This document shows positions 19,116 through 60,371 of a stretch of DNA of 64,000 nucleotides, one piece after another. The stretch is from the NCBI RefSeq assembly GCF_027474825.1, contig NZ_CP107030.1:3848001-3912000 (forward strand), written 5' to 3'. How positions within the stretch are numbered: the first letter of the stretch is position 1; every line of letters begins with the position of its first letter. A program made the position numbers and the translations under genes. Under the pieces are notes generated by a model that did no database searches, had not been told where the DNA came from, and saw only the letters and a program-made list of their open reading frames with translations. This DNA is from Maribacter halichondriae (GTDB lineage: Bacteria; Bacteroidota; Bacteroidia; Flavobacteriales; Flavobacteriaceae).

Positions 19116-19189
19116 TAGCGAGAGGGAGACTTGAACTCCCGACCTCAGGGTTATGAATCCTGCGCTCTAACCGCCTGAGCTACCTCGCC
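19116..19189 (-). tRNA. tRNA-Met (CAU), elongator type
   Basis: A 74-nt cloverleaf. The acceptor GGCGAGG pairs with UCUCGCU plus discriminator A, the D arm is GCTC..GAGC, the anticodon loop is TTCATAA, and the T loop is TTCAAGT. No CCA is encoded. G1-U72 and an anticodon stem without three G:C pairs argue against the initiator. Elongator Met is more likely than Ile2 (k2C), but sequence alone does not fully exclude the latter. Confidence 0.95.
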
Positions 19190-52883: not shown

Positions 52884-54182
52884 TTACTCCATCAAAAGTT
52901 TCATGAGTTCTTCTGCCGCAACTCTTCCCTTTAACTTTAAAAAAGGTCTTGGTGTATTGTCCCCTAGTTCAAAAACAATAGCCGGCATATCGTGGTTCAC
53001 GTAAAAATAGTTTCGGGATACCATGGTCGGGTCGATTTTGGTCGAAGCACTTATATTGGTTTTTTTACTGGCTAATCTTTGGCTAATATTTTCAATCCAA
53101 TCAAAGACAATTTTACCTTTCTCTTTTGTAACTACGGTATCTATGGGATAGTAGATATCGTCCCAAGTGGAGTGAAAATCGATTCCGAAATCGAACTCGA
53201 ATCCTTCCTTGTTTTTGGTAGTCAGAAAATCACGGACACCGGAAGTTTCGGGCTGGTTGAACTCCTCCCAATCGCGATTCAGATCGATTCCGCCCATATT
53301 ATGACGCCAATGCCCGTTATCCACACCATCCGGATTCATTAAGGGGCTAACGAAAACTTTATATTTTTCCCGAAAGGCAATGGCTTCTTTTGTGGTTCCA
53401 CAAACGGTTTCGATGAAGGATTTCATGGCCAAAAATCCTGTCACTTCTGGAGGATGTTGCCTTGAAATGATCATGATTCCCTTTTTGGTATCTGAATTTC
53501 CTATTTCCAAAAGGTGCAAAGGTCGGCCCTCCTTACTTTTTCCAATTTCATAATTTTTAATGAATTGCAATGTTGAAAGGGAATCGATCCATTGTTTAAC
53601 ACGGGTCGAACCGTATAGTTCTTGAGCGGTTATCCAAGTCGGGTTTTCATCTATGGCCAACGTAATCTCGGCAAATTCAGGAGCAGCATTGATTCCGAAT
53701 TCCCCTTCGCCCAAATTTATGGGTTTGTAATTAAGACTGTCCAGTACCTTGAAATGAAGGCCATCTGAACTGATTTTTGGATAATAACGACTTCGTGAAT
53801 CTTGATACGTTAATTTGATGGTAACACGTCTTGGGGAAGTCGTCCAAGCCTTGAAAGCATACCATGGACTTACATTGATGGGCGTATTTTCCGCCGTAAT
53901 CAAAATAGTATAATGATTATTGCCGTCATCGACGATGCCGTTCAGTCTTCCTCCTTCAAAATCATTACTAAAAAAAGTAGTGCTATCGGTTAGGGCCCAT
54001 ACCCCCTTCCATTGCTTTTGAACTGGTTTTGACTTGGTCGAAACAATGGGGCTTGGCCCTTGTCCCTGATAACCTGCAACAGTTTTTTTGGTATTCTTGC
54101 AGGAATAATACGTAAGTAAAAAAGTGATTAACAGAATTAAACGCAACGCTAATTTCATGGCTTTAAGATGATTTTTGACCAA
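52884..54182 (-). CDS. M14 family zinc carboxypeptidase lipoprotein
   Basis: A 432-residue lipoprotein (signal peptide with TYYSC). The N-terminal domain is of the beta-sandwich type seen before M14 domains. The peptidase core has SRQHPPEVTGFLAMKSFIE (HxxE zinc ligands), FVSPLMNPDGVDNGHWRHN with NRDWEEF, and HSTWDDIYYP supplying the third His. It is of the M14 subfamily D-like (cytosolic carboxypeptidase-like) type. Probably cleaves peptides in the periplasm or at the surface. Substrate unknown. Convergent with ccsBA. Confidence 0.92.
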   Translation of the reverse strand: MVKNHLKAMKLALRLILLITFLLTYYSCKNTKKTVAGYQGQGPSPIVSTKSKPVQKQWKGVWALTDSTTFFSNDFEGGRLNGIVDDGNNHYTILITAENTPINVSPWYAFKAWTTSPRRVTIKLTYQDSRSRYYPKISSDGLHFKVLDSLNYKPINLGEGEFGINAAPEFAEITLAIDENPTWITAQELYGSTRVKQWIDSLSTLQFIKNYEIGKSKEGRPLHLLEIGNSDTKKGIMIISRQHPPEVTGFLAMKSFIETVCGTTKEAIAFREKYKVFVSPLMNPDGVDNGHWRHNMGGIDLNRDWEEFNQPETSGVRDFLTTKNKEGFEFDFGIDFHSTWDDIYYPIDTVVTKEKGKIVFDWIENISQRLASKKTNISASTKIDPTMVSRNYFYVNHDMPAIVFELGDNTPRPFLKLKGRVAAEELMKLLME

Positions 54183-54280
54183 AATACGTCGAAATTTTTT
54201 GTTCCGGCTTAAAAAATTTTGGCGTATAGTTTACTGAGCAATTGATTTTTTTCGCATCTTTATACTCTCATGAAGTTATA

Positions 54281-54386
54281 AGAATTATGTTTTTTAGAAA
54301 TGTCATAGGGCTCAAGCCCAGAAAGTAATCGACTTGCTTAAGTCGACGTGTTGACATTTTTTACTTCTTCCGTTTAACATAATTCT
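54281..54386 (+). ncRNA. Candidate structured leader RNA upstream of the MATE gene
   Basis: P1 is an 11-bp stem (AGAATTATGTT at 54281-54291, AACATAATTCT at 54376-54386). P2 inside it is 10 bp (54296-54305 with 54352-54361, one G-U). Within P2 lie two hairpins: GGGC-TCAA-GCCC (54308-54319) and TCGACTT-GCTT-AAGTCGA (54329-54346). Together they form a three-way junction with an asymmetric internal loop. P1 ends 7 bp before the MATE ATG, so folding could control translation. It might be a riboswitch, a mobile palindromic element, or a repeated RNA of the Flavo-1 kind. I cannot match it to a known class from memory. Confidence 0.5.
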
Positions 54387-54393
54387 ATTTATA

Positions 54394-55803
54394 ATGCAAT
54401 CAACCAATAAACTCACGTTAAAAAAATTATACGATTATTTTATTATTGCGATAACCGGTAGGGAAACCGAATTTACGACCGGGAGTATTCGCAAGGCTAT
54501 TTTTATGCTTTCCATTCCCATGATATTGGAAATGATGATGGAAAGTATTTTCGCCATTGTCGATATCGCCTATGTGTCTCAGGTCAGTGTCAATGCTGTC
54601 GCTACTATCGGCCTCACGGAATCGGTCATCACTTTAGTGTACGCCATAGCTATCGGACTCAGTATGGCCGCAACGGCAGTAGTTGCCCGAAGAATTGGGG
54701 AAAAGGATGTTAGGGGTGCAAGGGAGTCAGCTGTTCAAGCTATTATCCTAGGTGTGATTGTTTCACTATTGGTAGGGGTCATCGGATTTTTTTATGCACG
54801 GGAAATTCTTTCGCTAATGGGAGCCGAACAAGACCTAATCGATGAAGGTTATGGCTATACCCAACTGCTTATCGGTGGCAACATCACCATACTGCTTTTG
54901 TTCTTGATAAACGCCATATTCCGCGGTGCGGGAGATGCTTCCATTGCCATGTGGGCATTGGTACTTTCCAACGGACTAAATATCATTCTGGATCCCATTT
55001 TTATTTTTGGATGGGGACCTATTCCCGAGTATGGAGTCATGGGCGCAGCTATTGCGACGAACATCGGTCGAGGCACAGCAGTTTTATTTCAATTGGCCAT
55101 CTTGTTTGTCGGATGGAGCAGAATAAAAATAGGTTTTAAGGATGTCGTGATTCGATTCGAGGTTATGCTCAATTTGGTCAAGGTTTCTTTGGGTGGCATC
55201 GCACAATTTCTTATCGGAACAACCAGTTGGGTGTTCTTAATGCGAATGATCTCCGAATTCGGCAGTGAGGTACTTGCCGGTTACACCATTGCCATTCGTG
55301 TCATGCTTTTTACGTTGATGCCCTCATGGGGCATGAGCAATGCTGCTGCGACTTTGGTAGGTCAAAATTTGGGAGCCAAAAAACTTGAACGTGCCGAAAC
55401 TTCCGTCTGGAAAACCGGTAAGTACAACGCAATTTTTATGGGTATTGTCTCGCTGGTCTATTTATTTTTTGCAAAAGAAATTGTTGGCTGGTTCAACGAT
55501 AATCCCGTTGTTGTCGAAAATGGAGGACTCTGCCTACGGATTATCGCCTTAGGGTATATTTTCTATGCCTATGGTATGGTGGTCACGCAAGCTTTCAATG
55601 GGGCAGGAGATACCGGTACACCGACCAAAATCAATTTTATTGCTTTTTGGCTCTTCCAGTTACCTTTCGCGTATTTGGCGGCCATAAAGTTCGAACTGGG
55701 TGCCCTGGGAGTATTCATTGCGATTACCACGGCTGAGGTCTTGTTGGCGGTAATAGCCATGATATGGTTCAGAAAAGGACATTGGAAGAAGTTTCAGGTG
55801 TAG
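54394..55803 (+). CDS. MATE family efflux transporter
   Basis: A 469-residue multidrug and toxin extrusion protein with twelve TM helices in two bundles. The first is SIPMILEMMMESIFAIVDIA, with the conserved acid in MESIF..VDIA, and the second begins NAVATIGLTESVITLVYAIA. NorM-like sodium or proton antiport is expected. No drug target is predictable. Its leader carries a structured RNA candidate. Confidence 0.93.
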   Translation: MQSTNKLTLKKLYDYFIIAITGRETEFTTGSIRKAIFMLSIPMILEMMMESIFAIVDIAYVSQVSVNAVATIGLTESVITLVYAIAIGLSMAATAVVARRIGEKDVRGARESAVQAIILGVIVSLLVGVIGFFYAREILSLMGAEQDLIDEGYGYTQLLIGGNITILLLFLINAIFRGAGDASIAMWALVLSNGLNIILDPIFIFGWGPIPEYGVMGAAIATNIGRGTAVLFQLAILFVGWSRIKIGFKDVVIRFEVMLNLVKVSLGGIAQFLIGTTSWVFLMRMISEFGSEVLAGYTIAIRVMLFTLMPSWGMSNAAATLVGQNLGAKKLERAETSVWKTGKYNAIFMGIVSLVYLFFAKEIVGWFNDNPVVVENGGLCLRIIALGYIFYAYGMVVTQAFNGAGDTGTPTKINFIAFWLFQLPFAYLAAIKFELGALGVFIAITTAEVLLAVIAMIWFRKGHWKKFQV

Positions 55804-60296: not shown

Positions 60297-60371
60297 GGTG
60301 GTTGTAGCTCAGCTGGTTAGAGCATCGGTTTGTGGTACCGAGGGTCGCCGGTTCGAACCCGGTCTTCCACC
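60297..60371 (+). tRNA. tRNA-His (GUG)
   Basis: A 75-nt cloverleaf with extra G-1 opposite C73, anticodon loop TTGTGGT, and T loop TTCGAAC. No CCA is encoded. Two acceptor positions (5-68 and 6-67) are U-U oppositions. Otherwise the arms are complete. Confidence 0.92.

Follow-up and report, generated by a model that had tools for sequence, protein, structure and literature searches.

A conserved leader with two short ORFs upstream of a flavobacterial MATE efflux gene: a candidate ribosome-sensing translation attenuator

What is the function of the compact RNA fold that ends a few nucleotides before a MATE-family efflux transporter gene in Maribacter halichondriae? The locus lies within the window, i.e. 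the whole 64-kb stretch of DNA analysed here. A sequence-only reading of this DNA had offered three identities for the fold: a new ligand-binding leader, a copy of a repeated flavobacterial RNA or a palindromic mobile element. Our computational analysis points to a different answer, namely that the leader is a ribosome-sensing translation attenuator working like the three-codon upstream ORF (uORF) of vmlR and like toiL, to which we assign a probability of roughly 0.7. Control is probably antibiotic-triggered and not that of a metabolite-binding riboswitch. To our knowledge, little is known about RNA-level sensing of translation stress in Bacteroidota.

A conserved single-copy fold in front of the MATE gene

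The candidate regulated gene (54394-55803, + strand) encodes a 469-aa protein matching Pfam PF01554 (E = 4.6e-64) and TIGR00797 (265.1 bits compared to a cut-off of 147.4), in agreement with its earlier assignment as a MATE transporter. Refolding of the region 54281-54386 returned every detail of the geometry that had been described: an 11-bp outer stem (54281-54291 pairing with 54376-54386), a 10-bp inner stem (54296-54305 with 54352-54361) and two hairpins (54308-54319 and 54329-54346), all on the + strand, with 7 nt between the end of the element and the MATE ATG at 54394. The 3′ arm of the outer stem thereby adjoins the MATE start. The minimum free energy (MFE) is -29.6 kcal/mol compared to a shuffle mean of -15.97 (s.d. 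3.11; z = -4.38), and 0 of 200 shuffles are equally stable, in line with the earlier view that chance pairing is unlikely.

We then characterized the conservation of the fold in 77 leaders, comprising the window and 80 orthologous loci from which L044 (contig edge), L060 and L061 (no leader) and L037 (second AUG lost, see below) were removed. An outer stem of at least 8 bp joins the region of the second AUG to the 5′ flank of the MATE gene in all 77 MFE folds, compared to 545 of 3080 shuffles. The mean fold z is -4.2, with 72 of the 77 leaders below -2, and two hairpins are enclosed in 66 of the 77 MFE folds. Alignment A1 holds 75 rows, including L037, while L045, L075 and L085 are absent from it though among the 77. 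On A1 the outer helix is paired in 91.5% of cells, the inner stem, whose 3′ arm is seen both in the fold and in the helix counts, in 73.0% and the first hairpin in 61.0%. The second hairpin reaches just 48.6% on the MAFFT alignment, and therefore no covariation is claimed for it. The whole structure is 73.5% paired on A1 compared to 35.0-44.7% in slid controls; of 500 shuffles, none attains the A1 value for percentage paired or for covariation, and 11 attain that for the number of further pair types. On a quick tree of the MATE proteins, pair 15/154 switches from one paired state to another at least seven times and pair 16/153 at least nine times. RNAalifold on the MAFFT alignment recovered the outer stem only, because the interior is poorly aligned; helix counts were then made against a specified structure. 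The check at orthologous loci that the sequence-only reading had suggested thus identifies a conserved, MATE-associated cis RNA leader with repeated compensatory changes.

The outer arms are palindrome-like, as a repeat or palindromic mobile element might be, but copy number speaks so strongly against this identity that we consider it extremely remote. Searched as DNA, the element occurs once in full in its own genome, the other five matches being fragments of 16-28 nt, and covariance model R1, built from 75 leaders, likewise finds one copy, its next match having an E value of 5.62; these are far from the dozens of copies expected of a repeat. At E ≤ 0.001, R1 matches 20 of 199 Flavobacteriaceae genomes with one match each, and comparison of coordinates places all 20 matches directly upstream of a MATE match, so that a repeated flavobacterial RNA is not supported either. 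Among 295 genomes of the class the own genome is the sole match of R1, a model built on class-1 leaders and scored there with stricter filters.

Rfam at gathering scores gives no match to the leader, consistent with the earlier failure to match its junction to a known class; the sole matches in the 64-kb window are two tRNA genes (19116-19189 on the - strand and 60298-60371 on the + strand). A permissive Rfam scan of the leader yields matches on the - strand alone, three in number and below threshold (11.5-17.1 bits).

Two short ORFs and a promoter-like box

Three elements of the leader had been overlooked: a -7-like box, a three-codon ORF 5′ of the fold and a 13-codon ORF running through it. 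The box CATCTTTA (54255-54262, + strand) is predicted from the sequence to be of the Bacteroidota TAnnTTTG type, a -7 consensus reported in PMC7366714 and PMC9723704, and lies 7 nt before the first ORF; the selection rule applied to the orthologues below picks it as well. A sigma-70-type promoter scan gave 2 matches with 1.5 expected and was not used. The first ORF, or mini-ORF (ATG AAG TTA TAA, encoding MKL; 54270-54281, + strand), is kept as an ORF across orthologues and is predicted to be near-leaderless. Bacteroidota largely do without Shine-Dalgarno signals. In the M. halichondriae leader the last base of the mini-ORF stop is the first base of the outer stem, and 5 nt separate this stop from the AUG of the second ORF, which lies within the 5′ arm. 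Orthologous leaders share a common order: a -7-like TTTG or TTTA, a few nucleotides, ATG AAG TTA TAA or a variant of it, and the outer stem with the second ATG.

A box followed by an ATG, picked on promoter score alone, is present in 85 of 107 MATE orthologues of the family compared to 33 of 352 upstream regions of other genes, these controls being neighbour genes at the orthologous loci and hence not independent; the other 22 orthologues lack it under the selection rule. An ORF of two or three codons follows in 69 of the 85 (66 with three codons, 3 with two) compared to 7 of the 33 controls. These 69 short ORFs comprise 19 distinct sequences, end in TAA (47), TAG (20) or TGA (2) and lie 4-8 nt from the box, 7 nt being the spacing in 46. 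Their residues vary (MKL, MK, MKY, MKS, MIV, MIA, MID, MIG, MEL), and therefore it is the length that is kept. Many more distant MATE orthologues carry ATG ATT GTT TAA or similar at the place of the mini-ORF (the MI class), and no ATG mini-ORF is present in L047, L062, L080 and L253. Searching the own genome for a box with a three-codon ORF gave 9 matches compared to 4 in the reversed control. Five lie inside long ORFs (L218, L219, L221, L222, L226), for L220 the stretch listed shows no nearby gene start in the same orientation, and L223 and L225 lie ahead of other genes, with ORFs at +44 and +249. In many MI leaders (e.g. L158, L167, L172) the mini-ORF is followed by ACTTCCG and a TCGAG-type hairpin.

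The second leader ORF, MFFRNVIGLKPRK (13 codons and a stop; 54287-54328, + strand), is closely interwoven with the fold: codons 4-7 form the 5′ arm of the inner stem, the first hairpin lies within the ORF and the second hairpin directly 3′ of its stop. It has 13 codons in 45 of the 77 leaders, 14 in 20 and other lengths (8-15) in 12, and the peptide often reads M-[FY]-x-I-D-V...P-K-K. A frame test on 65 of the 77 second ORFs, which were chosen by length so that the absence of internal stops is by construction, shows milder substitutions in frame (mean BLOSUM -0.07 compared to -1.36 and -0.84 in the other frames; in the 14-codon class 0.41 compared to -0.52 and -0.81). The observed values are reached by 11 and 11, and by 5 and 13, of 300 column permutations. 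Judged from these sequence comparisons, support for coding by the 13-codon ORF is modest. The second AUG is lost in L037, and MI leaders mostly carry no second ORF at that place. L173 and L184 lack the usual second AUG; there the TGA stop of the MKL mini-ORF overlaps the ATG (as ATGA) of a second ORF of 15 codons. L115 has its first ATG in frame with the second ORF, so that both form a single fused ORF, MIGIMFFINVNGFSARI.

A second family of the same order (f7) has a MATE match at E ≤ 1e-150 in 7 of 88 genomes. The five loci of 64-66% MATE identity keep the outer stem, the inner stem and two or three hairpins; their second ORFs have 17 or 20 codons and encode other peptides, and a three-codon mini-ORF is present in four of the five. 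At the two loci of 53-54% identity neither the fold with the second ORF nor the mini-ORF was found, and inspection of 11 MATE homologues of genus g240 (46-48% identity) revealed no such leader. As far as the sequences indicate, the geometry is conserved more than the peptide.

Other arrangements occur before related MATE genes. MATE homologues of 48-50% identity in genus g128 of the same family (L232, L233, L235-L239, L241) have a five-codon ORF, MIVSA, further from the box. At most of these loci this ORF is followed by the segments CCTAATCCTA, TAATTAGGATAC and TTATCCTAA, which might form either of two mutually exclusive pairings ahead of the MATE start; one of these leaders was folded. L060 and L117 retain just the 3′ arm of the outer stem; in their 5′ part, the leaders consist instead of unrelated DNA bearing a separate GCGGGT/ACCCGC inverted repeat.

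These comparisons bear on two further readings. Codons 4-6 of the second ORF are mostly I-D-V in both length classes examined, which would suit an ErmCL-like arrest specific to the 13-codon nascent peptide, the mini-ORF having an accessory role. However, the I-D-V codons also form part of the inner stem, the f7 peptides differ while the geometry is kept, and the MI class is mostly devoid of the second ORF; we consider this reading improbable. Slightly less probable still is a metabolite- or drug-binding riboswitch, although a compact three-way junction upstream of a transporter would fit one. Besides the negative Rfam search, the interior differs in the MI class and in f7, and conservation falls mostly on the bases of starts, stops and stems. 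The new ligand-binding leader put forward previously is not supported because loops and junctions vary while the short ORFs and their positions are kept.

Pairing and modelled opening of the MATE start

In 77 of the 85 leaders with box and ATG we compared the pairing between the mini-ORF region and the MATE start with that of shuffled starts. The pairing exceeds that of the shuffles with a mean z of -2.42; 43 of the 77 leaders lie below -2, 34 fall short of this value, and in 28 none of 50 shuffles is as strong. The corresponding mid-leader control gives a mean z of +0.14 with 3 of 77 below -2. Complementarity between the mini-ORF region and the MATE start thus persists through changes in their sequences. 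Leaders of the MI class can form this pairing with the mini-ORF itself, as in L118, where TGATTGCAT can pair with ATGCAATCA.

We modelled opening of the MATE start in the 74 leaders of class 1 that have a mini-ORF and in a further 45, most of them from the MI class. Masking by a ribosome at the mini-ORF AUG lowers the modelled opening cost in the class-1 leaders from 8.3 to 2.5 kcal/mol, with a drop of more than 2 kcal/mol in 68 of the 74 and not in the other 6. A mask at the second AUG gives 2.4 kcal/mol and at codon 6 of the second ORF 4.5 kcal/mol, compared to 7.9 at the second-ORF stop and 8.4 in the mid-leader. In the 45 other leaders the cost falls from 5.6 to 2.4 kcal/mol, the drop exceeding 1 kcal/mol in 35 and not in 10. 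In the model, then, a ribosome held early is predicted to open the MATE start, whereas a ribosome that has reached the second-ORF stop is not. The + strand of 54150-54520 contains no terminator-like site, the sole site being on the - strand, where the second hairpin is read backwards; control of translation is therefore favoured.

We infer that transcription begins a few nucleotides before the mini-ORF and that both ORFs are translated. In undisturbed cells ribosomes would quickly finish the 3-codon and 13-codon ORFs and the outer stem would close, which would hide the MATE start region together with the second AUG. A ribosome held on the mini-ORF AUG or where the second ORF begins would cover the 5′ arm and block the stem, so that the MATE gene could be translated. 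Agents holding it may be those that act at start codons elsewhere, i.e. tetracycline, lincomycin and retapamulin. An ORF of two or three codons is too short for most nascent-chain-dependent arrest, and start-codon stallers are therefore the likeliest inducers, as far as can be deduced from the leader.

The same ORFs might instead act as a constitutive loader, with ribosomes entering near the 5′ end keeping the stem partly open and setting the MATE level without drug sensing. The predicted near-leaderless start of the mini-ORF would suit this arrangement, as would the 5 nt between its stop and the second AUG and the TGA/ATG overlap in L173 and L184. However, the second ORF ends 65 nt before the MATE gene and direct coupling is therefore unlikely; moreover, a closed stem over the MATE start with the opening cost modelled above would be costly for a constitutive gene. 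This explanation appears unlikely to us, yet it ranks first among the alternatives.

Relation to known attenuators

The ribosome-sensing attenuator draws on a short ORF upstream of the putatively regulated gene that is conserved as an ORF, and on a predicted and covarying structure that hides the start of this gene; in the thermodynamic model alone, a uORF-bound ribosome excludes this structure. Among the titles covered by an incomplete literature survey, none concerns a MATE leader of this kind, and the 64 structured 5′ regions reported for F. psychrophilum (as outlined in PMC9723704) may already include it. More tentatively, and with somewhat less than even confidence, we propose a two-input attenuator, undescribed so far and present in two or more families of the same order. 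An ORF of two or three codons, near-leaderless, and a second short ORF would share a start-hiding stem with the MATE gene, and arrest at either upstream AUG would turn on efflux; the geometry would be kept while RNA and peptide sequences are replaced, some lineages having dropped one ORF. The 2-3-codon uORF, predicted to be near-leaderless and conserved upstream of a chromosomal MATE pump in 69 of the 107 orthologues, offers a simple, testable system for drug-induced efflux in Bacteroidota and suggests that this MATE family exports ribosome-targeting compounds.

The tetQ leader of Bacteroides CTnDOT reportedly encodes a very short leader peptide. We liken the two leaders by description: both belong to Bacteroidota and would place a drug-resistance gene under translational control, whereas tetQ is a ribosome-protection gene on a conjugative element. 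The tetQ leader is named as a translation attenuator in PMC5418344. ErmC-type leader peptides, as summarized in the same source, likewise combine a leader ORF with a structure hiding the next start. In contrast to the MATE leader, whose peptides differ between families, they need a drug-specific arrest peptide (PMC5418344).

Closer in its mode of action is the toiL uORF of topAI in E. coli: the uORF region pairs with the surroundings of the start of the following gene, and ribosomes held on the uORF free that start. As described for this system in PMC12121999, ribosomes stall at start codons under tetracycline, and induction by retapamulin takes the same route. According to that description toiL is a single uORF tied to Rho-dependent termination, whereas the class-1 MATE leader has two ORFs.

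The Bacillus subtilis vmlR leader has a three-codon uORF, MIN, of which MDN, MDK and MRK variants are competent, and lincomycin and retapamulin act through it, as reported in PMC9226507. The MATE leader is alike in having a three-codon uORF whose residues vary (three codons in 66 of 85 leaders, two in 3) upstream of a gene of antibiotic resistance, and ribosomes held at the uORF start exert the control in vmlR. The vmlR uORF has, according to the same account, a Shine-Dalgarno sequence, whereas the MATE mini-ORF is predicted to be near-leaderless, and in vmlR translation attenuation is combined with RNA polymerase pausing and an intrinsic terminator. Because no terminator-like site was found on the + strand of the MATE leader, we do not file it as a member of the vmlR type but regard it as a leader that probably works alike.
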